In this document: one piece after another, positions 36,174-57,373 of the stretch
How positions within the stretch are numbered: the stretch's first letter is position 1
How the letters are laid out: each line of letters starts with the position of its first letter
NCBI RefSeq assembly: GCF_000384255.1
Contig: NZ_KB913035.1
Location: 2,123,093-2,187,092 of the forward strand
DNA length: 64,000 nt
Direction of reading: 5' to 3'
Source of the DNA: Methylotenera mobilis 13
GTDB taxonomy: Bacteria; Pseudomonadota; Gammaproteobacteria; Burkholderiales; Methylophilaceae
Notes under the pieces: generated by a model
Database searches by the model: none
What the model saw: only the letters and a program-made list of their open reading frames with translations
What the model was told of the DNA's origin: nothing
Program-made: the position numbers and the translations under genes

Positions 36174-37190
36174 ATGTCAGAAGTAGCCTTGCAACAATGG
36201 CGTAATCACGCGCTTGCTTTAGAACAAGCATTAAACCATGTAGTTCTGGGTTTAAAACCAGCTGTACGTTTACTGATTATTTCCATTTTCTCCCGTGGTC
36301 ATGTTTTGTTAGAAGGTAATGTTGGTGTAGGAAAAACCACACTACTAAGAGCTGCAGCTAGGGGCATTGGTGGTGGCTATCAACGCGTTGAAGGTACGAT
36401 TGATTTAATGCCACAAGATTTGATATACCACACTTACATTAGTAGCGAGGGTAAACCGAAAGTAGATCCTGGTCCATTGTTAATGCAAGGTGAAAATTTA
36501 TCTGTTTTCTTTTTTAATGAGATTAATCGTGCCCGACCGCAAGTACACTCACTATTGCTACGCGTCATGGCTGAGCGTTCGGTAAGCGCATTTAACCGCG
36601 AATATCAATTTCCGCATTTACAAGTATTTGCAGATAGAAATGCCGTTGAAAAAGAGGAAACCTTCGAGCTACCAGGTGCCGCACGTGACCGGTTCTTGAT
36701 GGAGATTGAAATCGCACCAGAAAATGATACTGATATCCATAAGGCACTCACTTTTGACAGTCGCTTTCACGATACTGATCAACTGATAGAATCAGTCACC
36801 GAGAATAGCCTTAACTTTTCCGAACTCTCCGCACTTGCACCTATCATTCAAAACGCGGTAGTTGCTGGCAGCTCTGTTCAAGATTTTGTAGAACACTTAA
36901 GGCGAGCGACGCATCGTCCACAAGATTACGGCATTCATTTGCCTGATGTAGAGATGGATGAACTTATGATTGCAGGCATTGGGCCACGCGGTAGCAGTAT
37001 GCTGGTACGTGCCGCAAAAGTATCGGCATGGCTCAATGGGCGCGCTCACTTAACACCCGAAGATATTGCGAGTGTATTTCATGAAGTTGTCGCACATCGT
37101 GTGTTTTTCAGACCAATCTATGAACTACAACGCACTTGGCTTGCTCGTGCTTATACACAGGCTATTTTGAACAACGTGCCAACACCGTAA
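36174..37190 (+). CDS. MxaR-like MoxR AAA+ ATPase, module 1
   Basis: A 338-residue MoxR-family ATPase with Walker A (EGNVGVGKTTLL), Walker B (LSVFFFNEINRARPQVHSLL), a sensor segment (VFADRNAVEKEETFELPGAA) and the AAA lid (about 230-330). MoxR ATPases work with vWA-domain partners as chaperones; MxaR belongs to the set needed to activate methanol dehydrogenase. It is very similar to MxaR of the mxa operon (56348-57373), for example FSRGHVLLEG and LMPQDLIYH against LMPSDFLYH. It is the first of six plus-strand genes (R-S-A-C-K-L) ending at 41662. The RBS AAGGAGCG is strong. Confidence 0.88.
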   Translation: MSEVALQQWRNHALALEQALNHVVLGLKPAVRLLIISIFSRGHVLLEGNVGVGKTTLLRAAARGIGGGYQRVEGTIDLMPQDLIYHTYISSEGKPKVDPGPLLMQGENLSVFFFNEINRARPQVHSLLLRVMAERSVSAFNREYQFPHLQVFADRNAVEKEETFELPGAARDRFLMEIEIAPENDTDIHKALTFDSRFHDTDQLIESVTENSLNFSELSALAPIIQNAVVAGSSVQDFVEHLRRATHRPQDYGIHLPDVEMDELMIAGIGPRGSSMLVRAAKVSAWLNGRAHLTPEDIASVFHEVVAHRVFFRPIYELQRTWLARAYTQAILNNVPTP

Positions 37191-37225
37191 ATATCTCTTA
37201 AAACATTGTCTATCAAGATGTCAGC

Positions 37226-38080
37226 ATGACTAAGAACGCACTTATTCACTATCGTATTCTATGGAAACCAACAGGAAACCAGCCTGGTGCTAAACGTGGC
37301 TCATCTGCGGGGATAGGTGATCAATTACGTGCACTAGTATTGCTACGTGACCATCCTGACCCAAGGCGTACAGACTTACGCGCTAGTATGCGCGACCCTT
37401 TTGAACAAATATGGGTGAGAGACTTTAACCTAAATGCGTCACTAAAAGTGATTGTGTTGGCTGATGCGTCAGCATCCATGGGCTACCAAGGCACTGTGAA
37501 CCGCTTAGCTGTGACTGAGGACATCACCTCACAGTTGGCGCTATCTGCTTATCGCTCTGGTGATGCTTTTGGTTTCTATGCGGCTAACAGTGAAATGATT
37601 AATAAATTAACATTACCTACCAGAATTAACCGCTCCGCATGGTTATGGGTAAAACAACATTTATCAACACTTGAGCCATCAGGTAATAATGCAGATGGAT
37701 TACTTAAGGTTTCATCGTTATTACCTAAGCAGCGTTGTCTGGTGTTTGTGATTTCAGACTTCAGATGGACTAAAGATAAAACCGCAAAATTATTTAAAGC
37801 ACTCAATCATCATGATGTTGTACCTATTGTGCTACAAGACCCCAGCGAAATTGATCAAATACCGAACCGCGGCATTGCCACTTTACAAGACATGGAAACT
37901 GGTAGAACACAATTTGTGTGGATGAGACCTGCCTTAAAAACACAAATAGCTAAAGCCAGAATTGAGCATATTAAAACCCTGCAAGACACTAGTCGAATAT
38001 ACGGCTACAAGCCATTTCTAGTGAAAGGGAAATTTAAACCAGAGTCTTTAACACAGTACTTTATGGATAGAAGCGTATGA
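37226..38080 (+). CDS. MxaS-like DUF58/vWA protein, module 1
   Basis: A 284-residue cytoplasmic protein of the DUF58 family with a vWA-like fold. It has the family signature PDPRRTDLRASMRDPFEQ and a metal-ion-dependent adhesion site core, Asp-Ala-Ser-Ala-Ser (IVLADASASMGYQG). It aligns along its length with MxaS (55449-56378) and with the module 2 copy (47563-48423). Such proteins are the usual partner of MoxR ATPases. It starts 35 bases after the mxaR-like gene and overlaps the next gene by 4 bases. Confidence 0.85.
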   Translation: MTKNALIHYRILWKPTGNQPGAKRGSSAGIGDQLRALVLLRDHPDPRRTDLRASMRDPFEQIWVRDFNLNASLKVIVLADASASMGYQGTVNRLAVTEDITSQLALSAYRSGDAFGFYAANSEMINKLTLPTRINRSAWLWVKQHLSTLEPSGNNADGLLKVSSLLPKQRCLVFVISDFRWTKDKTAKLFKALNHHDVVPIVLQDPSEIDQIPNRGIATLQDMETGRTQFVWMRPALKTQIAKARIEHIKTLQDTSRIYGYKPFLVKGKFKPESLTQYFMDRSV

Positions 38081-38997
38081 TTCGACAACGCATCAAAGTA
38101 TTCATGTTGCTCGTGATGATTTGCCAGATTGTAATTGCCAAACCAGCTAATGTGGATAATGAGTTGAAGGTGAGCGTTCGTATGAGAGACAGCGGCTACA
38201 CCATGGGTGACTATATCAAGATGCATGTAGAAATTCCTACACAAAATAAATTATCTATAGACCCTGAAAGCTTACCTCTGATTGGCCGTGTAAAACCTTG
38301 GTTAGACTTACAGGATCTAAAGGTTGATACTCAACAAGATAAACTCAGCTTAGATGTTACTTGGCAAATTTTCGCGACTGTAGAGATTGCGCAAGCACTT
38401 AAAACACCCAAGCTATTATTAAAAACACTTGATAACCCAAAACAAAACATTACGATACCAGCACAAATATTTTACTATTCGCCAGTATTACCTTATCCAT
38501 TGGGTGAAGTAAAACGTCATCAGAATATTCCCCCGCCAAAATTTGATATGCAGACCCCACTCGCCATTGTCGGCATATGCCTAGCCATGGCAACTATCTT
38601 GTGTGGAGTTTTATTATGGATTAAAGATTTAATTCCTTGGCTACCTCATCAACCTGGGCCAATGACAATATTAGCGCGCCATTTAAAAAAATTAGACAAT
38701 GAAACCATGCAATATGATCAATTGCTAAAAGTTCATCATGCTTTAAACAGCACAGCAAAACAAAGCTTGTATCCAAACACGTTAGATATCTTATTTAAAA
38801 ATGCACCCTACTTAAAAAACGAACGCGATGCTATTCATCAATTTTTTAATGATTCATGGAGCAATATTTATGAAAGCCCATCCCACACACATCCAATAAC
38901 TGTAGCGCAAACGCTTGCTTGGGTTAATCGTGCCGCAGTGGCTGAGCGAATTTTTAGAAATCGTTCTAAAGCTAAAGCTGTTCATAAAAGAACTTAG
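38077..38997 (+). CDS. MxaA-like membrane protein, module 1
   Basis: A 306-residue protein: N-terminal signal or anchor (about 1-21), a periplasmic beta-rich domain (about 22-160; LKVSVRMRDSGYTMGDYIKM), one TM helix (about 165-188; IVGICLAMATILCGVLLWI) and a cytoplasmic helical domain. This is the MxaA layout; MxaA is implicated in calcium insertion or assembly of methanol dehydrogenase. Sequence conservation with MxaA of the mxa operon is moderate. It overlaps the upstream gene as ATGA. Confidence 0.78.
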   Translation: MIRQRIKVFMLLVMICQIVIAKPANVDNELKVSVRMRDSGYTMGDYIKMHVEIPTQNKLSIDPESLPLIGRVKPWLDLQDLKVDTQQDKLSLDVTWQIFATVEIAQALKTPKLLLKTLDNPKQNITIPAQIFYYSPVLPYPLGEVKRHQNIPPPKFDMQTPLAIVGICLAMATILCGVLLWIKDLIPWLPHQPGPMTILARHLKKLDNETMQYDQLLKVHHALNSTAKQSLYPNTLDILFKNAPYLKNERDAIHQFFNDSWSNIYESPSHTHPITVAQTLAWVNRAAVAERIFRNRSKAKAVHKRT

Positions 38998-39000
38998 CTC

Positions 39001-40047
39001 ATGAACACCCTACATTTTTTTAAACCTGAGTTACTATGGTTAATGCCTATTGCTGGCTTACCTTTTATCTCCCATGGTATTAAACAATTTAAGTTTCCAG
39101 GCTTAGAGGATTGGCCTATAGATAAAACCTCTCAATATCTACGCTGGGGACTACGTGGCCTTGCCAGCCTAACTATTGCTTGCTTAATTATTGCATCAGC
39201 GGCACCTTTTACAGAAGGTGGAACTACCAGCAGAGTGGGTGAAGGTGCTGAAATTGTCGTGGTGCTGGATCGTAGCGGAAGTATGTCAGAAGGCATAAAA
39301 GGCAGAGACTACAATCGACAATCGGCAGAGGCTGGAGAGTCTTCGAACCATTTTTTGAGCAAAATTGAGGCTGCTCGCCAAGTGCTACTAAAGTTCATGC
39401 AGCAAAGACCTGCTGACACGTTTGGGATGGTTGCTTTTAATGCATCATCCATTAGTGTTGCACCGCTATCGTCTGATAGAGCATTAGCAGAAGCAGCTTT
39501 ATTAAGTGCCCAAAGCCAAAGTACTGGGTTTACCGCATTAGGGCGTGCTTTAGCACTTGCATTGGATTACTTTGAAGGCAGACCATATACCGCAACTAGA
39601 CTAATTTTATTAGTTTCTGATGGTGATGCGATTATTGAAGGTGAAGATCAGGCGATTCTCAAACAGGAGTTTATTAGACAGCGTGCGCAATTAATGTGGA
39701 TTTACGTTCGGGGCGAACGAGAAATGAGTATTTTAGACTCTGTCATCGCTGGTGATAATGAGATTGAAACACAAGCAGATATTGCTTATGCAGCAACAAA
39801 GCAATCAGCTTCTATGCATGAAGTTTTTCAACAACTTGGCATGCCTTATCAAGCATTTGAAGTTGAAAGCGAAGAAGGGCTACAAACGGCAATTAAAGCA
39901 ATTAGCCAAGCGACCAACAAACCCACAAGATATGAGTTACGTTTACCGCGCAAAGATTATGGTGTCTATTTCTACATGCTCACTATGTTGCTACTAACAA
40001 CACTCATTTTTATTAAACGCTTAGAAATAAAAGTATGGAAGCCATGA
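39001..40047 (+). CDS. MxaC-like vWA membrane protein, module 1
   Basis: A 348-residue protein: TM near the N-terminus (about 50-68), a periplasmic vWA domain with MIDAS Asp-Arg-Ser-Gly-Ser (VVVLDRSGSMSEG), the Thr of the site (STGFTALGRAL), the Asp of LLVSDGDA, and a C-terminal TM (about 320-340). It is close to MxaC (53488-54483), sharing LALDYFEGRPYTATRLILLV against LALDYFEGKPMTGSRVVLLV. It likely binds a divalent or trivalent cation through MIDAS, but its role in metal insertion is inferred. Confidence 0.85.
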   Translation: MNTLHFFKPELLWLMPIAGLPFISHGIKQFKFPGLEDWPIDKTSQYLRWGLRGLASLTIACLIIASAAPFTEGGTTSRVGEGAEIVVVLDRSGSMSEGIKGRDYNRQSAEAGESSNHFLSKIEAARQVLLKFMQQRPADTFGMVAFNASSISVAPLSSDRALAEAALLSAQSQSTGFTALGRALALALDYFEGRPYTATRLILLVSDGDAIIEGEDQAILKQEFIRQRAQLMWIYVRGEREMSILDSVIAGDNEIETQADIAYAATKQSASMHEVFQQLGMPYQAFEVESEEGLQTAIKAISQATNKPTRYELRLPRKDYGVYFYMLTMLLLTTLIFIKRLEIKVWKP

Positions 40048-40667
40048 CCTTTCAATTAAAGTCAATCAACGCTTTTAAATACGCATGGGTCCAATATTTA
40101 CCCAATGTCTTAGTTTGTACAATCATCCTGCTATTAAGTTTAGCAAGCTACCAAACTTATGTATATTGGAAAGCCTACCAGCTAAATACAGAGTACATCA
40201 GTGGCTCTATCGTTAAACAAGCGCTTAACCCTGATGAGCATTTGCATGCTTACAGCATTGCTTATCGATTATCTCAACAAAAGAAATCTACATTACAACT
40301 GGCACAAACTGCCAAAGCTTTTACTTTAGCAGAAGCATCGAAAGATACTCAAATACGCGCACTTGCTAAATTTGGTCTGGGTAATTTATATTTTGATTTA
40401 GCGTTAAGCGCTGCCAATGTTGAAGCGGGAGGCTCACACCAGCAAGCGGTTGCACAGATTGAACTTGCCAGAGAAGCCTACAAAGGCGCTTTAAGGCTCA
40501 AACCTGATTTATCTCAGGCTAAATTTAACTTAGAGCTATTAGATCGATTAAGCCCAGAAAAACGGACTGAGGCATGGCTAACAGAAACAGACGGTGTAAC
40601 GCTTCAACCATTTAAGCGTAATGGAACAGCAATGATGCGAGACAACAAGCGCAGAGGCTTACCATAA
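40044..40667 (+). CDS. MxaK-like protein, module 1
   Basis: About 207 residues, with an N-terminal membrane anchor (VLVCTIILLLSLASYQTYVYW) and a TPR-like helical domain ending in AREAYKGALRLKPDLSQAKF, matching MxaK's AKESYRDALRLKPDWMDAKY. The preferred ATG at 40044 overlaps the mxaC-like stop as ATGA; a frame start at 40035 is also open. It ends in a Pro-terminated tail (RGLP), as MxaK does (RGMP). The TPR domain probably docks the vWA proteins on either side (inference). Confidence 0.78.
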   Translation: MTFQLKSINAFKYAWVQYLPNVLVCTIILLLSLASYQTYVYWKAYQLNTEYISGSIVKQALNPDEHLHAYSIAYRLSQQKKSTLQLAQTAKAFTLAEASKDTQIRALAKFGLGNLYFDLALSAANVEAGGSHQQAVAQIELAREAYKGALRLKPDLSQAKFNLELLDRLSPEKRTEAWLTETDGVTLQPFKRNGTAMMRDNKRRGLP

Positions 40668-41662
40668 TGCATCACGCTCTTAAATATCACTGGTATCAGC
40701 TACTGATTGCATTACGTCATGCTTGGCAAAACGGCTCTATATTTTTCATGCTAGCAGGTTTTGTATTGCTACCTGTTTGGTTTTATCCCCATATTCAATT
40801 AAAAAGCACGGTACAAGATACACTATTTGTGATTGATATTAGCGAAAGTATGAATGTGCGTGATGTTGATTATCCTAGCCCGCAAACATCGCGTATTGAG
40901 TTAGCCAAACTTTCTGTTAGAGATGCCATGGCATCTTTACCTTGTGGTTCCCGTGTATCTATTGGGCTATTTGCAGGCGACGAAGTCACCGTGTTATTTG
41001 AGCCATTAGAAGTATGTCAACATTTTCCAGCCATTGAACAAGTCATTTCAAAAATAAACACCAATATGCGCTGGGTTGGCGACTCATGGATAATTAGAGC
41101 ATTAATCTCTGCTATCAAAGAGGCTCATAAAAGAAAATTAAATCTCGTCATGGTGACAGATGCGGATGAAATGCCACATCGCAGCGCTCCAAGGCTCACA
41201 GAATTACTCGAACTCAAGGAAAAAGTAAATGGTTTGTTACTAGGTGTAGGGAACGAAGCACCGCAACCTATCCCAAAACTTGATGGAAATCATCAAATTA
41301 TTGCTTACTGGACTCGAGAAGAAGCCGTTTTAGAGGGTAACCACCCTAATTTACTCGCTTATGTTAAGGCACTTACGCCAGGAGAAGCTATTCCAGAGGG
41401 TTTGTTAGATGAAGTAGGCGAGCATTTATCTGCATTTAATCAATCCCTCATGTTCAGTGTCGCACAATCTGCAGCAATGCAAGCCGCCCATATAAAAACG
41501 CCAAATGATGCGATCAAATCATTAAATATCAATGACTTTAAGAAAGAAGCAATTGCTGAGCGCGATGCTAGATGGCTGTTTGGCTTAACCTCTGCGATAT
41601 TGGTATTAATTGGATGGTTTTGGAAACCTATTTCAATATTATTAAAAACGAAGCATAGTTAA
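40667..41662 (+). CDS. MxaL-like vWA membrane protein, module 1
   Basis: A 331-residue protein with a TM helix (about 28-46), a periplasmic vWA domain with MIDAS Asp-Ile-Ser-Glu-Ser (LFVIDISESMNVRDVD), the conserved LPCGSRVSIGLFAGDEVTVL segment, MRWVGDSW, and a C-terminal TM (about 302-322). It is similar to MxaL (51930-52940) with ALPCGSRVALGLFTERNTTT. Start and upstream stop overlap by one base (TAATG). It is the last gene of module 1. Confidence 0.83.
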   Translation: MHHALKYHWYQLLIALRHAWQNGSIFFMLAGFVLLPVWFYPHIQLKSTVQDTLFVIDISESMNVRDVDYPSPQTSRIELAKLSVRDAMASLPCGSRVSIGLFAGDEVTVLFEPLEVCQHFPAIEQVISKINTNMRWVGDSWIIRALISAIKEAHKRKLNLVMVTDADEMPHRSAPRLTELLELKEKVNGLLLGVGNEAPQPIPKLDGNHQIIAYWTREEAVLEGNHPNLLAYVKALTPGEAIPEGLLDEVGEHLSAFNQSLMFSVAQSAAMQAAHIKTPNDAIKSLNINDFKKEAIAERDARWLFGLTSAILVLIGWFWKPISILLKTKHS

Positions 41663-41668
41663 ACATCG

Positions 41669-41707: not shown

Positions 41708-41763
41708 TTGGCGTGACTTTTTAACATGATAATTGAGCCTCTAAAGTAAATCCGAGGTTTGAT

Positions 41764-43974
41764 ATGATGTTTAAAAAGAAAGTATTAGCTACCCTAATTC
41801 CGCTTGTATTTATACAACCAGTATACGCGGACGAAACTAAAGAAGCGATTAAGTTAGATAAAGTGGAAGTGACTGGCATTTTGCCTGAAAAATTGGAGTC
41901 AGTGCCCGGTTCTTTCGATATTGTTACCGAAAAAGAGTTAGAAGCTAGCCGCCCTTTCTCAATTAAAGAAGCATTAGGTAATGTACCTGGTGTGAATGTA
42001 GTACAAAATGAAGACCCACTGGGTTTAGCACAAAACATCGGTATCCGTGGTATGGATCCTCGCCGTACGTCACGCACACTCTTACTTGAAGACGGAATGC
42101 CGTTATTCTTAGCCCCTTATGGTGACCCTTCTTCACATTATGTGCCTATGCTTGAACGTGTTGGTCGTATTGAAGTCGTTAAAGGCTCAGGCCAAGTGCT
42201 TTATGGCCCACAAACAGTAGGTGGCATGATTAACTTTGTTAGCAAACCAGTACCAAAAGATGGTTTTGCAGGTAGCGTATCTGCGGTTGGTGGTAATAAC
42301 GACTTTTATGGCTTACATGCCAATGTTGGTTACGGTACTGACCTAGGTGGATTCATGGTCGACGCCATTAAAAAAGAAGGCGATGGCATTCGTGAGAATC
42401 ACGAGTTTGATGTAGAAGAATACACGTTAAAGGGTCAATTAAACATCACAGACCGTCAAACACTGATTGCTAAAGTTGGTTACTACAAAGAAGACTCAAA
42501 CGTATCTGAAACTGGCCTAGGTGAAGTAGACTACATCAACGATAAGTTTCAAGCACCATCTGGCAAGAATGACTTTTTTGAGCATGAACGTAAGTCTGCA
42601 CAGTTACAGCATATTTTCCAAATTGATGACAAAATGAAGTTATCGACCCAAGCCTACTATGCTGATTCATATCGTACTTCGTTCCGTCAAACAGATGCAC
42701 CTGGTGGCTACGATGAAGCAAACAATGCGACTGGTATTACTGTTTTAGAAAGATGTGACACACCTGGTGTGCCATTTACTGAAGCGCAGGCGAATGCATG
42801 TGGTGGCCGCCATCGCCCAAGAAGCTATAACTACTGGGGCATTGAGCCACGTTTAGACGTAAGCCATAATCTGTTTGGTGTAGACAGTGATGCAGTACTT
42901 GGCTTCCGCTACCATGAAGAGGATATCAGACGTGAACAATACCGTGGAGATACAGCAGACTTTCAAAGCCTCTCTTTTGCTAAAGCTAACTCATTATCCC
43001 GTGAAGATATTGGAATCAAGGTTGAAGCTAAATCTTATTATGCCCAAAACACGTTTCACGTAAACGACTGGGCTATCACACCTGGTGTGCGAGTTGAAGA
43101 CATCCAAATTAAAACGGATATTCGTCGCGCAGGCAATGCTGTGCAAAATAATCCTGAATCAAACTCAACCAATAACCAAACAGAAGTATTGCCTGGATTT
43201 GGTGTCGCTTGGAATGGCATTGCCAACACCACACTCTTTGGTGGCGTGCATAAAGGCTTTGCACCACCTCGTCCAGACAGAGATTTACGTGTAGCTGGTG
43301 CAAATACTGCCGTAGTAGATAAAACTAAGCCTGAAACCAGCACTAATTGGGAAATCGGCGTGCGTTCTAACTATTTCAAAGGTGTAAACTTTTCATCGAC
43401 ACTATTTCATACTAAGTTTGATGATATCGTCGTCAATAATGGTGCTGGCAACTTTGTGAATGGTGGCGAATCAGCCATGTCTGGTTTGGAATTAGGCGGC
43501 CGTATTGATTTTGGTACGATTTATAACACCTCGCATAACATCTATTTGTTGGGTTCATATACCAATACGTTCACAGCGGAATTTAAGAAAGATGGTCAGG
43601 TGGCAAGTAGCGGTATTCAAAGTGGTTCACGTTTACCCTATGCACCTCGTCATTTAGCTTCTGTGAGTTTAGGCTACCAACATTCTGTTGGTCTTGACGC
43701 TCGTGTTGGTGTGACATATACCAGTCAACAAGAAGTTGATGCTTTTGCTAGAGCACTTGGTCCAGTGGATGCAGCGCTCTCTGGTCTTGCTGGCAACATT
43801 CCTGCATACACACTTCTTAACGCATCTGTGAATTTTAAACCAGTAGGTTCTAAAGTGACGTATTTCGCAAGTGGTCATAACTTGGCAGACCGTGAATATT
43901 TGGCAAGCCGTGTTGATGGTATGTCTGTAGGACGTGGGCGTCAGGTGTTTGGTGGTATTCGCTACGATTTCTAA
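41764..43974 (+). CDS. TonB-dependent outer-membrane receptor
   Basis: A 736-residue receptor: signal peptide (about 1-23), TonB box-like start (DKVEVTGI), plug domain (about 30-160; NIGIRGMDPRRTSRTLLLED, VEVVKGSGQVLYGPQT) and a 22-strand barrel ending in GGIRYDF with the terminal Phe. It belongs to the FecA-like group of metal-chelate receptors. The substrate is unknown. Its location between two RSACKL modules, in a locus with lanthanide-type XoxF, and the shared upstream motif make a lanthanide-chelate receptor (LutH-like role) plausible, but iron chelates are an equal alternative from sequence alone. No FecI/FecR genes adjoin it. Confidence 0.88.
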   Translation: MMFKKKVLATLIPLVFIQPVYADETKEAIKLDKVEVTGILPEKLESVPGSFDIVTEKELEASRPFSIKEALGNVPGVNVVQNEDPLGLAQNIGIRGMDPRRTSRTLLLEDGMPLFLAPYGDPSSHYVPMLERVGRIEVVKGSGQVLYGPQTVGGMINFVSKPVPKDGFAGSVSAVGGNNDFYGLHANVGYGTDLGGFMVDAIKKEGDGIRENHEFDVEEYTLKGQLNITDRQTLIAKVGYYKEDSNVSETGLGEVDYINDKFQAPSGKNDFFEHERKSAQLQHIFQIDDKMKLSTQAYYADSYRTSFRQTDAPGGYDEANNATGITVLERCDTPGVPFTEAQANACGGRHRPRSYNYWGIEPRLDVSHNLFGVDSDAVLGFRYHEEDIRREQYRGDTADFQSLSFAKANSLSREDIGIKVEAKSYYAQNTFHVNDWAITPGVRVEDIQIKTDIRRAGNAVQNNPESNSTNNQTEVLPGFGVAWNGIANTTLFGGVHKGFAPPRPDRDLRVAGANTAVVDKTKPETSTNWEIGVRSNYFKGVNFSSTLFHTKFDDIVVNNGAGNFVNGGESAMSGLELGGRIDFGTIYNTSHNIYLLGSYTNTFTAEFKKDGQVASSGIQSGSRLPYAPRHLASVSLGYQHSVGLDARVGVTYTSQQEVDAFARALGPVDAALSGLAGNIPAYTLLNASVNFKPVGSKVTYFASGHNLADREYLASRVDGMSVGRGRQVFGGIRYDF

Positions 43975-44169: not shown

Positions 44170-45108
44170 CTATCGCTTTATAAAACTTGGGATGTAGGTA
44201 GATAAGATCAATATTATTGCGAGTAATAAATATATCCAACGCACTGAATAAGCCGTCACAAAACTAGCAGCAGGTTTTTGCTCCTGCACGTACTCATAAA
44301 ACTGTGGCGTATTGCTACCTTCTATATAACTGGCTTTAATTTCCGCTGCTAACTCTTTAAGGTGCTCATCCTCAAGCTTCGATAAGTAACGATCATATTC
44401 TGCGGAAGCAACTTGAGGGTCAGGCTCATCCTGACTAGTATCTGTGTAGTTCACACCACCACCTGTACTATTATTCTCCCCTGATGGCCAAAACCCCACC
44501 CATTTATTTAAGGAATTATAGCGTGGCACAGCGACATGTTCTTTGCCCCCAACACCAACGAACAGAACGTGTTTACCTATTTGTACGCCATCTAGGTTCT
44601 GCCTAATGGTTACATTAAGCTTTGGCGCTTCGTCACCATCAGTAAAGAAAAGTAGCTTTGCTGGTGTGTTTAAAGAGTCGAATAAAGTTGCAGCGGCGCG
44701 CACACCAATCGTTAGTCGACTATCACCTTTCCACGCCATACGCCATTCAATATGGTCGATGGTGTCATTAAGCACATCATAGTTTTCACACACCTCTAAA
44801 GGGTTTATCAACAAAGCAACATTGTCTGATGCAAAAACTCCGACACTGATATGTGTACCACATGGTGATGATTCTACAGTTTTAGTCATTAAGTGCTTTG
44901 TATATGCCATACGGCTGACATTTTGGTTGTTGAGTTTCACATCCTCAGCATTCATACTTTGTGAAACATCTGCCAATAACAGGTAATTATGCACTTCCTG
45001 CTTTAATTGAATTTCAGGCTTAATTAAAGCAAGCAATAATAGTGCTGATGCCGCTATGTAGAGAGCCGTTTCGTAGTTAGTTTTAAACCAAGTGAATAGC
45101 TTATTCAT
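44170..45108 (-). CDS. MxaL-like vWA membrane protein, module 2
   Basis: A 312-residue protein: TM about 14-30, periplasmic vWA domain with MIDAS Asp-Val-Ser-Gln-Ser (YLLLADVSQSMNAEDV), SSPCGTHISVGVFASDNVALL, MAWKGDSR and a C-terminal TM (about 288-305). It is the last gene of a second extra R-S-A-C-K-L module on the minus strand (49463 to 44170). It is more divergent from MxaL than the module 1 copy is. Its start overlaps the mxaK-like stop as ATGA. Confidence 0.82.
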   Translation of the reverse strand: MNKLFTWFKTNYETALYIAASALLLLALIKPEIQLKQEVHNYLLLADVSQSMNAEDVKLNNQNVSRMAYTKHLMTKTVESSPCGTHISVGVFASDNVALLINPLEVCENYDVLNDTIDHIEWRMAWKGDSRLTIGVRAAATLFDSLNTPAKLLFFTDGDEAPKLNVTIRQNLDGVQIGKHVLFVGVGGKEHVAVPRYNSLNKWVGFWPSGENNSTGGGVNYTDTSQDEPDPQVASAEYDRYLSKLEDEHLKELAAEIKASYIEGSNTPQFYEYVQEQKPAASFVTAYSVRWIYLLLAIILILSTYIPSFIKR

Positions 45109-48423: not shown

Positions 48424-49463
48424 GCTGCTTTAGCCTGTGCTGGTACAGCAACAGTGTTTAATATCTGTGTTGTAAACTCACGCGCCAACTGAGTTCTGCG
48501 ATTCTCATACATAGAGTTAAATACTAGTCTATGTGCAATTAACTCATGAAACACGGCATGAATATCTTCAGGATACAAACTATCTCGATTCATCAACCAT
48601 GCATTGACACGAGCCGCCTTAAGCAGCATACCCATGCCACGAGGACTAGCACCCGTATGGACTAAACGATTCACATCAACGCTGTCCATTTTTATGCCAA
48701 ATTTGGCTGGCGACTGAGTGGATTCCCATAAGTCGATTGCGTAATCTTCCAGCGTTGGGCTTGATTTGATGTGGCTTTGTAGCGTATCTGAAAATTGATT
48801 GAGTTGATCAAACTGCAGTACATTAGACTCTACTTGCTTGGTCAGATTTTCAGCATGTTGGAACTTCACATTGAACATGAGTGATTTTCTTAATTCGCGA
48901 TCCTCTGGAATCTCAATCGGTATTTCCATCATAAATCTGTCACGTGCTGCTGATGGGATTTCAAAGGTTTCATTTTTTTCAACCTGATTTCTATCTGCAA
49001 ACACCACCATATGTGGCAGCCGGTATTCTTTTTTGAAGGCACTAATATGTCGCTCTGCCATCACGCGCAACATTAGGGCATGTACTTGCGGTCTGGCCCG
49101 ATTGATTTCATTAAAAAAGAAAACAGATAAATTTTCACCTGCGCGTAATAAAGGACCTTCATCAATTTTCGGCCTACCATCTTCACCTAAATATGTGTGA
49201 TAAATTAAATCGTTCGGCATTAAGTCTACCGTACCTTCAATTCGCTCGTAAGCACCGCCAATACATCGTGCAATAGACTGTAACAATGTGGTTTTGCCCA
49301 CACCTACGCCACCTTCCAGCAATACATGGCCACGCGCAAAAATGGCAATATTCATTAACCTAATGGCTTTATCTTGGCCTACGATAACTTTTTTAACTTC
49401 ATTTTCTAACTTTAAAGCATGATTACGCCAGTCTGTTAATTGATGATCTAGTGGTGGTGACAT
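48420..49463 (-). CDS. MxaR-like MoxR AAA+ ATPase, module 2
   Basis: About 347 residues from the preferred ATG at 49463 (MSPPLDHQ), which has AGGA 8 bases upstream; the frame is open to 49502. Walker A EGGVGVGKTTLL, Walker B LSVFFFNEINRARPQVHAL, and VFADRNQVEKNETFEIPSAA. It is the first gene of the module 2 operon and divergent from the MocR regulator across a 281-base region with operator-like repeats. It is clearly paralogous to the R genes at 36174 and 57373. Confidence 0.87.
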   Translation of the reverse strand: MSPPLDHQLTDWRNHALKLENEVKKVIVGQDKAIRLMNIAIFARGHVLLEGGVGVGKTTLLQSIARCIGGAYERIEGTVDLMPNDLIYHTYLGEDGRPKIDEGPLLRAGENLSVFFFNEINRARPQVHALMLRVMAERHISAFKKEYRLPHMVVFADRNQVEKNETFEIPSAARDRFMMEIPIEIPEDRELRKSLMFNVKFQHAENLTKQVESNVLQFDQLNQFSDTLQSHIKSSPTLEDYAIDLWESTQSPAKFGIKMDSVDVNRLVHTGASPRGMGMLLKAARVNAWLMNRDSLYPEDIHAVFHELIAHRLVFNSMYENRRTQLAREFTTQILNTVAVPAQAKAA

Positions 49464-49643
49464 GAGTATTCCTTTACTAACCATTGTTGTTAAAAGGTTC
49501 AATGAGTGGAACCAAGTTAAGCGTTACAAAACTTTCAATTTCGTTGTAACAAGTAGTGAATGCAATGTAACAGAATGTAAAAACCAAAGAACCATCCAGT
49601 TTAAATAAGCTAACTGGTCCAGCAGAATTTAGAGTTACAATAT

Positions 49644-49688: not shown

Positions 49689-49744
49689 GTTTTTTGTTTT
49701 TCTAATGCGTTTTATCAGCTAAATAATGTTGTAAAGGATAAGAA

Positions 49745-51211: not shown

Positions 51212-51212
51212 T

Positions 51213-51423: not shown

Positions 51424-51933
51424 TCACTTTTTTGGCACAGGCTTTTCTAAACCAAGTAAAGCTGCTTTCACGTAAGCGTTGACGGCATTTAATGCAGATT
51501 CATCATCCAGACCTTTTGGGGGTTCGTTCGTTGTGTCAGCACGATAATAACGTGCCACCCACACTACTTTAGAACTGGTGCCATCCGCAGTGACTTTAAG
51601 TCGACCTGTCAATGAACTAACAGGTAGTGCTTTAATATCAATATCTCCTAGGCGATATGAAATACTCATTTCGCTAGGTAATATCTCATCAATTTCCTCG
51701 TTAATTTTGCTACCATTTTTTAGTACTAATGTACGCTTAAGTGGAGTTATTGACTCACATCCAACGACATCAGGATGCCAATCTTTAATCGCACATGGTT
51801 CACTTAGTAGTTTCCAAACCGCATCAGGTGCTGCGCCAATCAGCACAGACTGATCAGTTTTTTGTGGAGTTGGTCCGTGTGCAATCGCTGGTGCTGCAAC
51901 GGCCATCAATATCAGTGCGTATATTTTCTTCAT
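51424..51933 (-). CDS. mxaD: MxaD, periplasmic SRPBCC protein of the methanol dehydrogenase system
   Basis: A 169-residue protein with signal peptide (MKKIYALILMAVAAPAIA|H) and an SRPBCC domain (LIGAAPDAVWKLLSEPCAIK; DWHPDVVGC). It is the last gene of the mxaFJGIRSACKLD operon; its start overlaps mxaL as ATGA. MxaD is reported to promote electron transfer from methanol dehydrogenase to cytochrome c-L. Two paralogues lie in the xox operon (25455-26000, 26039-26575). No mxaE/mxaH-type genes follow. Confidence 0.88.
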   Translation of the reverse strand: MKKIYALILMAVAAPAIAHGPTPQKTDQSVLIGAAPDAVWKLLSEPCAIKDWHPDVVGCESITPLKRTLVLKNGSKINEEIDEILPSEMSISYRLGDIDIKALPVSSLTGRLKVTADGTSSKVVWVARYYRADTTNEPPKGLDDESALNAVNAYVKAALLGLEKPVPKK

Positions 51934-52940
51934 TTTCTCTTTCTCTTAATCACACGTTGAAATAACTGGTTTAAAAAGGTAGCTGGTATAAAAAATAAAA
52001 TAATCAGGCACATCGCTGGTATAGCAAACCATGGACTTAAATCAGTATCAGCCATGCGCCATACCGATGTTTTTCTGCTAGAAAATGCATCGTTAAGTTG
52101 ATTAACCTCTTGGAGATTTAGGTAGTTAAGCCTTGTTTCGTTTGCCAATTTTTTTAAACTAGCCTGATCTTGTCCCGAAAGATTGGCATGATTCACTTCT
52201 GTCGGGGCACTACCATGAGGTGCATTTCTTCCATGCATTCCATCTGCTTGCTGTTGTTCCATTTCCAATGCTGATTGCACTCTTGCCATGCCAAAAGTTG
52301 CATATCGTTGCACGTCATCTAACTCCCAATAGCCAGTAATATTATCTTTGTCATCTAACTTAGGAATTAAACTTGGCTTTAATCCACCAACCCCTACGAT
52401 TAAACCTTTTACCTGCCCGGCTTTACCTTCAAACTTAGGCATATAGTCAGGGTTTCCTGGTGGAGCCTGATGGCCGTCAGTGATGAATGCAATATTCATT
52501 TGGTCATCAATTTTTGCAGTTTTTGCAATTCCATCAAATAGGCCATGGCTAATAAAAGAGTCTGCAGCCCAAGCCATACGCCAATCTACACGTGAGACAG
52601 TTTCATCTATTGCACTAAAGTGTGTACAGACTTCTAATGGATGTGTAATGGTGGTTGTGTTTCGCTCTGTAAATAAGCCTAACGCGACCCGCGAGCCACA
52701 TGGTAATGCCCGCAATGACTCACGAATACTTGCTTTAGAAAACGCTAGGCGGCTTATCGAGCGATCATTTATGCTCATGTCACGCACATTCATGCTTTGT
52801 GTAATATCAATGACAATCAACCAGTCATAGACGCGTTTAGGTAACTTCATATGTGGCTGAAATAAGCAAATCATCAACAAAATGATTGCCAGTAATAATG
52901 CTTTACCACGTGTATCTAGCTTACGCCACCAACTTATCAT
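51930..52940 (-). CDS. mxaL: MxaL, vWA membrane protein
   Basis: About 336 residues from ATG 52940 (overlapping the mxaK stop as ATGA); the frame extends to 52976. TM about 15-32, periplasmic vWA domain with the MIDAS core Asp-Ile-Thr-Gln-Ser (LIVIDITQSMNVRD), where Thr replaces the usual first Ser, then ALPCGSRVALGLF, MAWAADSF and a C-terminal TM. MxaL acts with MxaA, C and K in forming active calcium-containing methanol dehydrogenase. Confidence 0.87.
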   Translation of the reverse strand: MISWWRKLDTRGKALLLAIILLMICLFQPHMKLPKRVYDWLIVIDITQSMNVRDMSINDRSISRLAFSKASIRESLRALPCGSRVALGLFTERNTTTITHPLEVCTHFSAIDETVSRVDWRMAWAADSFISHGLFDGIAKTAKIDDQMNIAFITDGHQAPPGNPDYMPKFEGKAGQVKGLIVGVGGLKPSLIPKLDDKDNITGYWELDDVQRYATFGMARVQSALEMEQQQADGMHGRNAPHGSAPTEVNHANLSGQDQASLKKLANETRLNYLNLQEVNQLNDAFSSRKTSVWRMADTDLSPWFAIPAMCLIILFFIPATFLNQLFQRVIKRKRK

Positions 52941-53503
52941 GGCATACCACGTGGGAACCCAGGAATTGATGGCCAACCATCGGGAGGAACGCCCATGTCT
53001 TTCTCTTCCTCATCTTCTTTAGATGCTTTTCCACCCTGACTCTCTATGATGGGAGATAGCCTGAGAGCTAGTTCATAGTTGTACTTAGCATCCATCCAGT
53101 CTGGTTTAAGGCGTAATGCGTCGCGGTAACTTTCTTTAGCCAACGATAATAGTGGCATGGCTTTATCCCATGCTTCTAGCCCATGCTCATCGAGTAGACT
53201 AAGGGCTTGTTTTAAATAAATATTAGCGCTGTTGTAATGTGCTGATTGTGCAATGCTCGCATCTTTTGAGTTTGTAATACTGGCATATAAAGCTAATGAC
53301 TTTTGGTCGTTCACTTTTTGTTTCCAAAGGTAAGCATCTGCAAAAACAGCCTCATGTAGCGTGCTGTTATGTAGTCGATTGCTATTGAGGTTGTCGTTAT
53401 AGCGATTGGCTAAATAAAGACCTCTAGCACTCATCACGAGTGTTATCACAGATGCTATCAATACAACCATCATCAATGGCATAATATTTAGGCGGCGCGC
53501 CAT
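52937..53503 (-). CDS. mxaK: MxaK, TPR-like membrane protein
   Basis: A 188-residue protein: N-terminal TM (about 9-28), helical repeats (AKESYRDALRLKPDWMDAKY), an acidic/basic stretch (KASKEDEEEKD) and a Pro/Gly-rich end. It overlaps mxaC by 16 bases. Member of the methanol dehydrogenase activation set; probably a scaffold for MxaC and MxaL. Confidence 0.85.
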   Translation of the reverse strand: MARRLNIMPLMMVVLIASVITLVMSARGLYLANRYNDNLNSNRLHNSTLHEAVFADAYLWKQKVNDQKSLALYASITNSKDASIAQSAHYNSANIYLKQALSLLDEHGLEAWDKAMPLLSLAKESYRDALRLKPDWMDAKYNYELALRLSPIIESQGGKASKEDEEEKDMGVPPDGWPSIPGFPRGMP

Positions 53504-54483
53504 TGCTTAACCTCCGTTAAATGTAATGCAAACAAACCACAGCCACACAACAGTGCTAGTAGATAAAACACACTAGATAAATTGTGCCTAGGGGCCGTCT
53601 CAAAATAGCGTACAGGTTGGTTTTTTAAACGCGCAATATCTGCGATGGCAGTCTCAACAGCGCTAGGGCTTTCAGCCTCATAAGCTTTGTATGGCACCCC
53701 TAATGTGCTAAAAAATTGATGTAAGTGATACTCTGGATAGGCGTCCTCACGCCCCTCTTCTGGTGGCGCAGATATGCTGGCACCATTGGCTGACCGCATA
53801 AAAATCCAATAAAGTGAGGCGTGTTGCCTAATAAACATCGCTCGTAGCATATCTTGCGTTTTGCTATCTAAATGTGCACCGCCATCAGAGACTAATAAAA
53901 CAACGCGTGAACCTGTCATAGGTTTTCCTTCAAAATAATCCAGCGCTAATCCCAACCCTCGCGCAATCGCAGTAAACCCCATCCCACCAGCGTCAGTTGC
54001 CTTTAAGGCAGACTTCACAGCCTCTCTGTCCCCACCTAACGGTGCGACTAAAATGGGTGATGTGCTGAATGTCACCATGCCGATTAAATCTTCATGGCCT
54101 TTATCTACAAATGTTTGTAATACACGTCGCGCCGCAGCCATTTTAGAGGCACTACCTTCTGCTGGTTTATCTGCAAAGTCATCATTCATACTCGCGCTTC
54201 TATCAAGCACCATCATGATGTGAGCACCACGACCGACCCTTTCAACCACTGGTTCGCCCCAGTAAATACCAGCAAGAGCAAGTACAATAAACATGATGAG
54301 TAGCGAGCCGAGCAAACGCCATACGCGCTCTACCCAAATTGAAAGCGTATCTTTAGGTAGGCTCATCATAGATGGATGTGGGAATGACTCATGTCCGCTT
54401 GCAAACCAAGGGAATAATCCCAAAAAAAGCAGCATCAGCAGCCAAGGACACTCAATACCTGAATGATGAAAAAAATCGCTCAT
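53488..54483 (-). CDS. mxaC: MxaC, vWA membrane protein
   Basis: A 331-residue protein with N-terminal TM segments (about 12-26 and 54-72), vWA domain with MIDAS Asp-Arg-Ser-Ala-Ser (MMVLDRSASMNDD), GFTAIARGLGLALDYFEGKP, RVVLLVSDGGA and a C-terminal TM (about 300-320). Its periplasmic MIDAS domain is a plausible calcium-handling site in methanol dehydrogenase assembly. Confidence 0.88.
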   Translation of the reverse strand: MSDFFHHSGIECPWLLMLLFLGLFPWFASGHESFPHPSMMSLPKDTLSIWVERVWRLLGSLLIMFIVLALAGIYWGEPVVERVGRGAHIMMVLDRSASMNDDFADKPAEGSASKMAAARRVLQTFVDKGHEDLIGMVTFSTSPILVAPLGGDREAVKSALKATDAGGMGFTAIARGLGLALDYFEGKPMTGSRVVLLVSDGGAHLDSKTQDMLRAMFIRQHASLYWIFMRSANGASISAPPEEGREDAYPEYHLHQFFSTLGVPYKAYEAESPSAVETAIADIARLKNQPVRYFETAPRHNLSSVFYLLALLCGCGLFALHLTEVKQWRAA

Positions 54484-54510
54484 TTAAACAATAATCATAT
54501 ATTTTAAGAT

Positions 54511-55446
54511 TTAGATAGACTCTAAACGCATCAGTTGATGACTCAATTTTTTGAGTTGTATCAGACTTAACTTTGGCTGTTCTCCTGCAAAGAATGCAAG
54601 CTCAGAAACCAAATAAAAACGCTCAATGTCCTGCTGCTTAGGTAGTAACCATGCGCAATGTTGATAGAGTAGTGACAAACGCTCTATCGTGAGTGTGAAT
54701 TCTGCACTGTCATCAAAAGCGCTACGCAAAATCCCCATTGCTTTAAAGGTATTTGCAATCTCTGCACTGTTGGCTTTGCTCAATCTTTTAATATCACGGT
54801 AAGCTCGTCTAAATGGCTGAGCCTTACGCACTCGCAAATGAAACCAATCAAAGTGCCAAATAAAATAGACGAGTGTCAATAAAAACGTAAATGAGGATAG
54901 CCAGAGCATTGCTACATAGATTGATATATTGCGTAGTTTAGGTTTAATATCCGCACGCAGCGTCATCGTTTCTTTATTCATCTGCGAAGGTAATACAGAT
55001 GAAACCAACACTTGCGCTGGTTGAATATCAATCGCTATAGCTCGTTTCTTTTGTTTGAACTGTAAATGCAATGGTCTTAAAGCGTAGTATCTTGCCTCCT
55101 GCATCACTCTAAATACCTGCCATTCCAAAGTAACGAAGTGACGAGTCTTGTTACTAAAATCGGTTTGTTTCCAATCTGCATGCCGTAACTCTATATTGGC
55201 AGCCCCCTTACCTATGGCTGGTATTGAGGTTTCATCTAAGCGATACCCTTTCGGTGTAATCACTTCAACGGTCTGATGCGCAATATCACCAACACGGTAG
55301 CCAAGCTCTTCAACGTTGGACTTCACTAAAACTGCACGATCTTGAAGCGCTACATTGATGACTTTATTTTGCGCATCTGAGGCATAAGCGAATGAAGTGA
55401 TTAAAATAAAAAGTGAGCCATATAAAGGCATACAAGCGTTCGACAT
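54511..55446 (-). CDS. mxaA: MxaA, methanol dehydrogenase calcium-insertion protein
   Basis: A 311-residue protein with signal peptide (about 1-23), a periplasmic domain (GYRVGDIAHQTVEVITPKGY; RHFVTLEWQVFRVMQEARYY), a TM helix (about 175-195; LWLSSFTFLLTLVYFIW) and a cytoplasmic helical region. MxaA is required for incorporation of calcium into methanol dehydrogenase in Methylobacterium. It begins directly after mxaS. Confidence 0.87.
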   Translation of the reverse strand: MSNACMPLYGSLFILITSFAYASDAQNKVINVALQDRAVLVKSNVEELGYRVGDIAHQTVEVITPKGYRLDETSIPAIGKGAANIELRHADWKQTDFSNKTRHFVTLEWQVFRVMQEARYYALRPLHLQFKQKKRAIAIDIQPAQVLVSSVLPSQMNKETMTLRADIKPKLRNISIYVAMLWLSSFTFLLTLVYFIWHFDWFHLRVRKAQPFRRAYRDIKRLSKANSAEIANTFKAMGILRSAFDDSAEFTLTIERLSLLYQHCAWLLPKQQDIERFYLVSELAFFAGEQPKLSLIQLKKLSHQLMRLESI

Positions 55447-55448
55447 TG

Positions 55449-56378
55449 TTAACTAGCCTCCAACATATGACGTGTCAAAGCTTCTACATCAAAGTGATCT
55501 TCAATAAAAAATGGCATGCGTGTCCCAGCCAATAAACAGCTAGAAATAATCTCTGCACGTCGGCTTGCATAAGATTCCTTAATGCGCTTCACCAAGCTTG
55601 GCCTAAGGAATAAAGACTGATAATCACCTGTCTCTAAGTCACGCACGCGTGCCCACCCCCAGTTAGGAATATCACGATACTCTGCGCTATCCCATAGCAC
55701 GATTGGCACAACATCATGTGGTGATAGTGAGGCTAATGTCTCTTTTAGTAAGCGCTCATCTAAATGAAAGTCTGAAATTAAAAAGACTAAAGACCGTTTT
55801 TTCCTAAGTTGTTTCACTGCGCGAGGCAGAGCACTGGCGCCCACTTGGGCTAAACTACTGATGTTGATTAGTTTTTCATACACCTCGTCTGCAATGCCTC
55901 GTCGATACGAAGGCGCTTCAAACAAATCACTTCTCATCTCATCATCACAAGCAACCATGCCAAAGCCATCTCCATTGCGCTGTGCAGACCAAGCAATAGA
56001 TGCTGTGATATCAGCCATCAACTGAGTTTTATTGGATTTGCCTGAAAACCGCATGGATGCAGACAAATCAAGTATGGCATACACCGCAATCGCACCACGC
56101 TCATAGTAAGCACGCACCATCAGTTGCTGAGGAAATGTGCGTAAACTTGCACGTAAATCAATGCGCCTTGGATTAGTATTTTCTAAAAATGGTACATACC
56201 CACGAAAATCAGCACTTCCACCAGACGTGCGTGTAGCATGGCTACCTGGCTGTACGCTTCTAGAGCGCCACCCTAGCCGATAGTAAAATTCACTGGATAA
56301 AAAACGACTCAATTGAATGATGAAACCGATTGATGAATAAAAAATACTTAAGGGGCAGATACTTGATCTAACACGCAA
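55449..56378 (-). CDS. mxaS: MxaS, DUF58/vWA protein
   Basis: Up to 309 residues from a TTG at 56378 that overlaps mxaR by 31 bases. Homology with the other two S proteins begins only near residue 30, so a start further in (for example TTG 56312) is likely. It carries NTNPRRIDLRASLRTFPQQL, MIDAS Asp-Leu-Ser-Ala-Ser (YAILDLSASMRFSG) and SLVFLISDFHLDE. Cytoplasmic partner of the MxaR ATPase. Confidence 0.86.
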   Translation of the reverse strand: MRVRSSICPLSIFYSSIGFIIQLSRFLSSEFYYRLGWRSRSVQPGSHATRTSGGSADFRGYVPFLENTNPRRIDLRASLRTFPQQLMVRAYYERGAIAVYAILDLSASMRFSGKSNKTQLMADITASIAWSAQRNGDGFGMVACDDEMRSDLFEAPSYRRGIADEVYEKLINISSLAQVGASALPRAVKQLRKKRSLVFLISDFHLDERLLKETLASLSPHDVVPIVLWDSAEYRDIPNWGWARVRDLETGDYQSLFLRPSLVKRIKESYASRRAEIISSCLLAGTRMPFFIEDHFDVEALTRHMLEAS

Positions 56379-57373
56379 TTAAGTAAACGTGGCGCAATAC
56401 TTTCACGGCGTAACTCATAAGCTGGCGTGAAAAATATGCGATGCGCTACCGTTTCATAAAACACCGCTCTAATATCATCAGGTGTTAGATAGTCTCTCCC
56501 CTCTAGCCATGCTCTGCTCCTCGCAGCACGCATCAGCATCGCCATTCCTCTGGGGCTTGCACCTCCAGCCACTAATCTAGAGACATCAACATCTTCTAGC
56601 ACGACACCGAACTCACTTGGCGCGCGTAATGCACGCCACAAGTTAACGGCATAATCCTGCAAAGCTAACTCCGCACGAACGCTAGACTGAATTGCATCAG
56701 ACACCTCATTAAGTGCAGCATATGGCACTAACCCAGCAGGTAAGCTATCAATCAAAACATCTACATTGTGAAAACGTGCGTTAAACATCAACTCACGCTG
56801 TAAGTCTCTATCATTCGGCGCTTCAACTGAGATTTCCATAAAGAAGCGATCTCTTGCAGCGGCAGGCAGCTCAAATGTTTCTTCTCGCTCTAAGCGATTT
56901 CTATCGGCAAATACAGTGAGATGAGGAAATGAGTATTCACGATTAAATGCCTGCGTGCTACGCTCAGCCATTAAGCGCAATAACAAGCTATGCGCTTGTG
57001 GCCTAGCGCGGTTAATTTCGTTAAAGAAAAATACAGCTAAATTCTCTTCATGCTGTAATAAAGGGCCTGGCGAAACTGCTGGCTGCCCTTTTTCATCAAG
57101 ATACGCATGATATAAAAAGTCACTAGGCATTAAATCAATAGCGCCTTCAATACGCTGATATTCGCCACCAAGCAAATGCGCCGCCGCGCGTAATAAAGTT
57201 GTTTTACCTACCCCTACATCGCCTTCTAACAGGACATGTCCACGAGAAAAAATACTAATTGTCAACGCACGGACTTGATGATCTAACCCAAGCACAACAC
57301 TATTAAGTGACTGTTCAAATTGAATCGCACGTTCACGCCACTCTGGTAAATTAATATGATTGTTAAGCATCAT
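56348..57373 (-). CDS. mxaR: MxaR, MoxR AAA+ ATPase
   Basis: A 341-residue ATPase with Walker A EGDVGVGKTTLL, Walker B LAVFFFNEINRARPQAHSLL, VFADRNRLEREETFELPAAA, and the conserved GASPRGMAMLMRAARSRAWL in the lid. Founding type of the MoxR family, needed for active methanol dehydrogenase. It lies 154 bases after mxaI, with a terminator-like hairpin between them. Confidence 0.9.
   Translation of the reverse strand: MMLNNHINLPEWRERAIQFEQSLNSVVLGLDHQVRALTISIFSRGHVLLEGDVGVGKTTLLRAAAHLLGGEYQRIEGAIDLMPSDFLYHAYLDEKGQPAVSPGPLLQHEENLAVFFFNEINRARPQAHSLLLRLMAERSTQAFNREYSFPHLTVFADRNRLEREETFELPAAARDRFFMEISVEAPNDRDLQRELMFNARFHNVDVLIDSLPAGLVPYAALNEVSDAIQSSVRAELALQDYAVNLWRALRAPSEFGVVLEDVDVSRLVAGGASPRGMAMLMRAARSRAWLEGRDYLTPDDIRAVFYETVAHRIFFTPAYELRRESIAPRLLNCVLDQVSAP

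Follow-up and report, generated by a model that had tools for sequence, protein, structure and literature searches.

Four RSACKL gene sets of different descent in Methylotenera mobilis 13 and the probable preference of one of them for the XoxF1 dehydrogenase

In the methanol dehydrogenase system MxaFI, the proteins MxaACKL are held to insert calcium into the enzyme (PMC6028718), and chaperone-like roles have been described for MoxR ATPases (PMC3893208). Here, we analyzed a 64,000-nucleotide stretch of Methylotenera mobilis 13 (hereafter the window; contig NZ_KB913035.1, positions 2,123,093 to 2,187,092), in which the gene order R-S-A-C-K-L (MoxR ATPase, DUF58 protein, MxaA-like protein, vWA protein, TPR-like protein, second vWA protein) is found in module 1 (36174-41662, forward strand), module 2 (49463-44170, reverse strand) and module 3 (57373-51930, reverse strand), the latter embedded within mxaFJGI-RSACKL-D. 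Together with a further set outside the window (module 4), this makes four RSACKL sets in the genome, which differ in their descent, and we give a probability of about 0.58 to the reading in which module 1 serves the maturation of the neighbouring XoxF1 dehydrogenase, this pairing being a preference and not an absolute need.

The island and the four-set count are already published in outline. For Methylotenera mobilis 13, PMC4109929 describes a 58-protein island with mxaFJGIRSACKLD, arranged as the mxa cluster, one gene, a second mxaRSACKL, one gene, a third mxaRSACKL, three genes and xoxFJG, and its gene content, order and spacing are those of the window. The second set was reported as nearest to M. 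versatilis 301, the third as nearest to M. glucosotrophus SIP3-4, and xoxFJG as being of lateral origin; Table 4 of that study lists four sets in strain 13, in agreement with our count, as it does for five further strains, whereas JLW8 and 301, which have no mxaFJGI, are listed with two sets each. As far as its available text goes, that study offers BLAST affinities only for the extra sets and assigns no dehydrogenase to them.

To relate set types to dehydrogenases, we surveyed 80 Methylophilaceae genomes, calling the types by the C protein; all counts refer to the matches listed, which comprise all but the weakest. Module-1 type denotes at least 65% identity to module 1 C (next match 42%), whereas identity to module 2 C was at least 60% for the module-2 type, 41-51% for the module-4 type and 26-31% for the module-3 type; one match in G011 (55%) was left out, and matches at 50% and 51% were scored as module-4 type. 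At least one set was present in 79 of the 80 genomes, the exception being G070, which is 48% complete. Module-3-type C and MxaF (at least 78% identity) occur in the identical 27 genomes; module 3 is the mxa set, the type of which pairs exactly with MxaF in this family sample. Module-1-type C was found in five genomes, all within the ten that carry XoxF1 (at least 86% identity), and in none of the 70 others (Fisher 1e-5, counts and tests ignoring shared descent); in the 38 large, complete genomes the numbers are 4/8 with XoxF1 versus 0/30 (p 9.5e-4). All five module-1 genomes hold XoxF1, but five of the ten XoxF1 genomes do without module 1. The module-4 type is absent only from G021 and G070 and is the core set of Methylophilaceae, occurring with or without MxaF.

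For module 2, the survey revealed no tight dehydrogenase partner. Its co-occurrence with a second XoxF4-like type (24 of 33 module-2 genomes; p 4e-10 over the 80 genomes, 6e-5 in the 53 without MxaF) fell to p 0.01 in the 38 large, complete genomes and to 0.1 and 0.18 when these were split by MxaF, and we do not claim this pairing because genome size confounds it. Module 2 and MxaF gave p 2e-8 overall, but 0.09 in the 38 genomes. Module 4 and XoxF4 are likewise not claimed as a pair, since both are nearly universal and G021 has a XoxF4-like enzyme without module 4; XoxF4 is our own provisional label, taken from a Methylophilaceae XoxF query (L175). Overall, a partition of the module types by dehydrogenase is supported. 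The case for the putative specialization is good for the pair of module 3 and MxaF and fair for that of module 1 and XoxF1, while for module 2 it is not supported.

Beyond this family sample, relatives of module 1 were retrieved in a MoxR search using FFFNEIN as pattern, from which the best 80 of 415 rows for module 1 R were kept. After leaving out 17 of these loci without full R, S, C and L, a tree was built by a quick method from the four concatenated proteins; its 69 rows comprise 65 sets from 63 loci and the four sets of this genome. Module 1 falls within a clade of 16 (support of 100 in the Shimodaira-Hasegawa-like approximate likelihood ratio test, SH-aLRT) with members from Methylotenera, Methylophilus, Methylophaga-like bacteria, Burkholderiales and Nevskiaceae. 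In a Hydrocarboniphaga metagenome-assembled genome (MAG), a Burkholderiales MAG and Solimonas aquatica (loci L018, L019 and L021), the set stands directly behind xoxF1-xoxJ(ankyrin)-xoxG and shares their orientation. In the Hydrocarboniphaga MAG (G091) and Solimonas aquatica (G094), it is the only set found at E 1e-25, and no MxaF was found in these two genomes, of unstated completeness, where the best match to the MxaF query (42-43%) is XoxF1 itself. Because of this sole set behind xoxF1-J-G in two genomes and the five-out-of-five co-occurrence, module 1 most likely matures XoxF1. In those parts of the open-access literature that we consulted, no xoxF1-RSACKL operon was described, and a search of that literature found no paper treating xoxF together with methanol dehydrogenase in Hydrocarboniphaga.

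Among the best 80 rows, 15 genomes have an R that is most similar to that of module 1 (L007-L021, with L015, L016 and L017 also belonging to the family sample of 80 genomes). XoxF1 (at least 74% identity) is encoded in 12 of them, MxaF (at least 86%) in seven and PQQ (pyrroloquinoline quinone) dehydrogenases in all, and in 11 of the 15 loci a XoxF with the lanthanide-type motif WDYDG lies within ~15 kb on the same contig (XoxF1 in eight, another XoxF in three). XoxF1 is missing from L007 and L014, where a WDYDG enzyme other than XoxF1 lies close to the set, and from L020, where no dehydrogenase was seen within the 21 kb read. Trees of XoxF1 and of the module agree broadly over 13 pairs (Mantel r 0.73, permutation p 0.001), the XoxF1 tree having few well-supported branches; this comparison covers 13 of the 16 module-1 rows, L007, L014 and L020 having no XoxF1 and the XoxF1 of G060 being cut by a contig end. 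Taken together, module 1 belongs to a clade that moves laterally and is linked to XoxF enzymes, in most cases XoxF1. Among plasmids, 11 records held relatives of module 1 R (E 1e-60), all below 60% identity, and module 1 itself was not found.

Several observations weigh against this assignment. According to a 2024 review (PMC11845868), mxaACKLD and mxaRSEH are not required for XoxF. Genomes G051 and G069 encode a XoxF1 99-100% identical to that of the window and share the rest of the island (87-95% DNA identity by blastn, same gene order), from which module 1 is missing. The window stretches without counterpart in these collinear islands are as follows:

35985..41628, no strand: unmatched in G051 (blastn, gene order), comprising module 1 minus the last 34 bases of L, with 182 unmatched bases in its place
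35985..41659, no strand: unmatched in G069 (blastn, gene order), comprising module 1 minus the last 3 bases of L, with 199 unmatched bases in its place

These alignments fit a gain of module 1 here as well as a loss in G051 and G069. Among the matches listed, module 1 is likewise absent from three further XoxF1 genomes, G014, G021 and G073, and G021 combines MxaF, XoxF1 and a XoxF4-like enzyme, yet has a single set of module-3 type. In 369 genomes of the class, XoxF1 (at least 66%) was found in three besides that of the window: no set was found at E 1e-25 in G160 and G396 (XoxF1 66-68%), and the single set of G213 lies near its MxaF; no set stands beside xoxF1 in the stretches read from these three, one of which ends behind xoxJ. 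The idea that each dehydrogenase has its own machine, as originally proposed, is thus broken as a strict rule by G021, G051, G069, G014, G073, G160 and G396. Furthermore, the Methylophaga-like modules (L010, L012) nest inside those of Methylotenera (100/100) while their XoxF1 lie outside (91/92), and XoxF of another clade stands beside the modules of L012 and L014, so that the module also moves apart from XoxF1. Finally, in L008, L009 and L013 module 1 follows immediately after mxa, four of the five module-1 genomes also carry MxaF (p 0.04), and the evidence linking module 1 to XoxF1 is all correlative.

Some of these observations fit an alternative in which all sets are interchangeable calcium loaders for MxaFI, the system for which RSACKL is known, and module 1 lies near XoxF1 since methylotrophy genes cluster in islands. 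The positions behind mxa, the frequent presence of MxaF alongside module 1, and the retention of a 99-100% identical MxaF by G051 and G069 would all be expected on these terms. We nevertheless regard interchangeable loaders as unlikely: module-1-type sets occur in G060 (99% complete), Solimonas aquatica and the Hydrocarboniphaga MAG, in which no MxaF was found, and 50 of the 80 family genomes hold a set with neither MxaF nor XoxF1, in agreement with the sets reported for JLW8 and 301 (PMC4109929).

Sets away from dehydrogenases bear on a second alternative, namely that RSACKL proteins help to mature envelope proteins in general, with additional copies for other quinoproteins or unrelated periplasmic enzymes. 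Among 58 genomes of the Solimonas aquatica family, an R of the RSACKL kind occurs in 12, of which two are of module-1 type next to xoxF1, one is next to MxaF and nine are without a nearby XoxF or MxaF relative; for these nine of the ten non-module-1 sets, no such relative was seen in the 5.8-20 kb read (L178-L186), four of the ten stretches being cut by contig ends. The closely read orphan set L178 lies among housekeeping genes (glycyl-tRNA synthetase, photolyase and EPSP synthase), and a complete RSACKL on Caballeronia plasmid p3 (L176, 12001-17198) stands beside heavy-metal efflux, arsenic resistance and transposase genes, and the 25 kb read there showed no dehydrogenase. Such a general role is, in our estimate, distinctly improbable, as the orphan sets are of other types, XoxF is near 11 of the 15 module-1-type loci and PQQ dehydrogenases are found in all 15 genomes.

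Assignment of module 1 to XoxF1, which we continue to prefer, leads to the question of the metal. As the original prediction had noted, module 1 lies on the xoxF side of the island, with three genes between the two. The genes concerned are:

30701..32605, reverse strand: xoxF1-type dehydrogenase (TIGR03075; motifs GGDEF and WDYDG)
28850..30475, reverse strand: xoxJ-type binding protein fused to ankyrin repeats (TIGR03871 9.8e-67 over residues 35-270; ankyrin-protein models after residue 320)
28143..28709, reverse strand: xoxG-type cytochrome c (TIGR03872 7.6e-12, below cut-off)
32825..35761, reverse strand: Sel1/TPR-like protein, response regulator and histidine kinase, between xoxF1 and module 1

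The best solved relative of the window XoxF is 7o6z (3.8e-252), which we take to be the neodymium XoxF1 structure of the Methylacidimicrobium work. An Asp ahead of the metal-binding Glu is described as diagnostic for XoxF1 (PMC8546591); this residue is present in the window enzyme (GGDEF), which is why we classify it as XoxF1, as is the extra lanthanide-binding Asp (WDYDG), the motif on which a lanthanide reading would rest.

Published data on calcium or lanthanide in XoxF1 conflict. Calcium has been reported in the XoxF1 of M. oxyfera (PMC6028718 and PMC9291206, citing Wu 2015), a metal termed not known in PMC6094997; XoxF1 of Methylocella silvestris is repressed by La, like MxaF (PMC9291206), and neodymium was found in XoxF1 of Methylacidimicrobium thermophilum (PMC8546591). 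A third alternative, which overlaps with our preferred one, holds that XoxF1 is a calcium or dual-metal enzyme here and that module 1 seats calcium, there being no lanthanide machine. The M. oxyfera and Methylocella reports as well as the otherwise known role of RSACKL with calcium speak for it; the lanthanide-binding Asp of the window XoxF1, the neodymium enzyme and the uncertain M. oxyfera metal speak against it, and we find it rather doubtful. A related and more far-reaching suggestion, likewise hardly to be favoured, is that module 1 itself decides the metal of XoxF1, its presence allowing calcium or either metal despite the lanthanide-type Asp and its absence leaving a lanthanide-only enzyme. 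If true, this would reconcile the calcium of M. oxyfera, the neodymium of Methylacidimicrobium and the La-repressed XoxF1 of Methylocella, and the near-identical XoxF1 with module 1 in this genome and without it in G051 and G069 would provide a natural test of such a role. More generally, RSACKL is mostly regarded as a calcium loader for MxaFI that XoxF can do without (PMC11845868 for the latter). A type that follows XoxF1, and is the sole one found in two genomes in which no MxaF was seen, suggests that this view may be incomplete for XoxF1; a set bound to XoxF1 would also make the disputed metal question testable by comparing the host strain with its near relatives lacking module 1.

Mechanistically, we envisage that R (MoxR ATPase) and S (DUF58) would act from inside and C, L (vWA) and A at the membrane, and that R, S, C, L, A and K would jointly remodel or open apo-XoxF1 at the membrane or in the periplasm. 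By analogy with MxaACKL and calcium in MxaFI, the opened apo-enzyme may then allow the active-site metal and PQQ to be seated.

All 18 reading frames of the three sets in the window are complete and keep the predicted order. The ends originally given for modules 1 and 3 are exact, while R of module 2 could begin earlier. The genes are:

36174..37190, forward strand: module 1 R, MoxR-type AAA ATPase (AAA_3 1.2e-25; Walker A GNVGVGKT, Walker B FFFNEINR)
37226..38080, forward strand: module 1 S, DUF58 (Pfam DUF58 5.9e-21)
38077..38997, forward strand: module 1 A, MxaA-like (no Pfam family above cut-off; model described below)
39001..40047, forward strand: module 1 C, vWA, motif DRSGSM (Pfam VWA_2 1.4e-13)
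40035..40667, forward strand: module 1 K, weakly TPR-like (blastp versus module 3 K 31%, 6e-13; TPR_11 E 0.04 only)
40667..41662, forward strand: module 1 L, vWA, motif DISESMN (Pfam VWA_2 1.5e-9)
48420..49463, reverse strand: module 2 R (Pfam AAA_3 5.8e-26; TTG upstream at 49502)
47563..48423, reverse strand: module 2 S, DUF58 (Pfam 2.6e-21)
46603..47520, reverse strand: module 2 A (blastp versus module 4 A 35%, 6e-48)
45626..46606, reverse strand: module 2 C, vWA (Pfam VWA_2 6.3e-11)
45105..45641, reverse strand: module 2 K (blastp versus module 4 K 28%, 3e-19)
44170..45108, reverse strand: module 2 L, vWA (Pfam VWA_2 1.6e-10)
56348..57373, reverse strand: module 3 (mxa) R (Pfam AAA_3 1.5e-22)
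55449..56378, reverse strand: module 3 S, DUF58 (Pfam 1.5e-22)
54511..55446, reverse strand: module 3 A (blastp versus module 4 A 24%, 1.6e-14)
53488..54483, reverse strand: module 3 C, vWA (Pfam VWA_2 5.6e-15)
52937..53503, reverse strand: module 3 K (blastp versus module 1 K 31%, 6e-13)
51930..52976, reverse strand: module 3 L, motif DITQSMN (blastp versus module 1 L 38%, 5e-44)

Proteins at the same position in modules 1-3 are 20-57% identical by BLASTP, and E values of 3e-142 to 6e-5 show that this likeness is not due to chance. Pfam families AAA_3, DUF58 and VWA_2 were assigned to all three R, S and C proteins, respectively, and VWA_2 also to L, except for that of module 3, which gave no Pfam family and was placed by its 38% identity to module 1 L (blastp). 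A and K of modules 1-3 likewise had none above cut-off. The model of module 1 A (mean predicted local distance difference test score, pLDDT, 81; predicted template modelling score, pTM, 0.43) starts with a helix, followed by a beta-sandwich, a single long helix that we regard as a putative membrane helix, and a helical tail, and its fold had no PDB match at E <=0.001.

A genome search with module 1 C (2.80 Mb, one contig) yielded four copies. Module 4, identified by blastp at ~G000:C1:1,139,800-1,145,500 in the order R-S-A-C-K-L, is surrounded by what appear, judging from the translations, to be housekeeping genes, e.g. CTP synthase, enolase and fatty acid genes. The four sets are mutually 20-65% identical. 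The expectation that functional motifs are kept was borne out in all four for Walker A (G-x-VGVGKT) and the vWA motif D-x-S/T-x-S, but the Walker B Asp is replaced by Asn (FFFNEINR) in all four R proteins; N-E instead of D-E was found in 69/69 R rows of the tree set, a count biased by the use of this motif in picking part of the set. Module 1 had been described as close to mxa, which is true for C (37%), L (38% over 183 residues) and K (31%) but not for R, A and S: its R is nearer to module 4 (60%) than to module 3 (57%), its A likewise (30% versus 21%), and its S is about equally distant from all other sets (31-34%). The supposed greater divergence of module 2 is better specified as that of a divergent sister of the module-4 family (R/S/C/L tree, blastp). 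The deep branching order among module types is weak (support 73), with long branches.

The remaining genes of the island considered here are:

51424..51933, reverse strand: mxaD-like (Polyketide_cyc2, Pfam 4.6e-20)
57528..57803, reverse strand: mxaI candidate, 91 aa (reading frame between mxaG and R)
57951..58526, reverse strand: mxaG, cytochrome c (Pfam Cytochrome_CBB3 3.4e-10)
58577..59410, reverse strand: mxaJ, solute-binding-like (Pfam SBP_bac_3 3.6e-10)
59598..61397, reverse strand: mxaF, calcium-type methanol dehydrogenase large subunit (TIGR03075 1.2e-191)
41764..43974, forward strand: TonB-dependent receptor, FecA-like (Pfam TonB barrel and plug)

We take the frames at 51424..51933 and 57528..57803 to be mxaD and mxaI, respectively, from their position. 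The mxaF gene adjoins module 3 only and is not adjacent to modules 1, 2 or 4; its relatives of at least 61% identity carry WD[YF]AG in the loci read. XoxJ-ankyrin relatives covering 95-97% of the length stand after xoxF1 in loci L018, L019 and L021. The trio of response regulator, histidine kinase and Sel1/TPR-like protein (our label; it matches MerG, ExoR and AlgK models) is also found beside xoxF1 in L011, G051, G069, G014, G073, G064, G083 and G085. The TonB-dependent receptor was considered as a lanthanide importer and dismissed, its relatives being FecA-type, some of them named Fe(3+) dicitrate transport protein, with no pointer to a metal. A MocR/PdxR-like regulator with aminotransferase domain lies between modules 2 and 3 (49745-51211). 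Behind xoxG (23505-28149) are beta-propeller proteins, a SoxYZ-like carrier and small frames, in an order similar to that of the XoxF1 loci L015, G036 and G014. The stretch left of the island (3530-21535) contains genes of the type II secretion or pilus type, others for an ABC exporter and its HlyD partner, and one resembling an O-antigen ligase gene.

Among known systems, the MoxR-Bat vWA operons (BatA, BatB, BatC) share MoxR, vWA and TPR-like proteins with RSACKL; among Leptospira models, BatA and BatB hit C and BatC hits K of module 3, each time far below cut-off, and we know of no dehydrogenase link for these operons. The closest system is mxaRSACKL(D) of MxaFI, which has the gene order and domains observed here and of which module 3 is a member, whereas no mxaD stands beside modules 1, 2 and 4. 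With respect to xoxFGJ clusters, xoxF1-J-G lies near module 1 in the window; in its available part, PMC11845868 gives xoxFGJ without RSACKL, whereas in L018, L019 and L021 RSACKL follows directly behind xoxF1-J-G.

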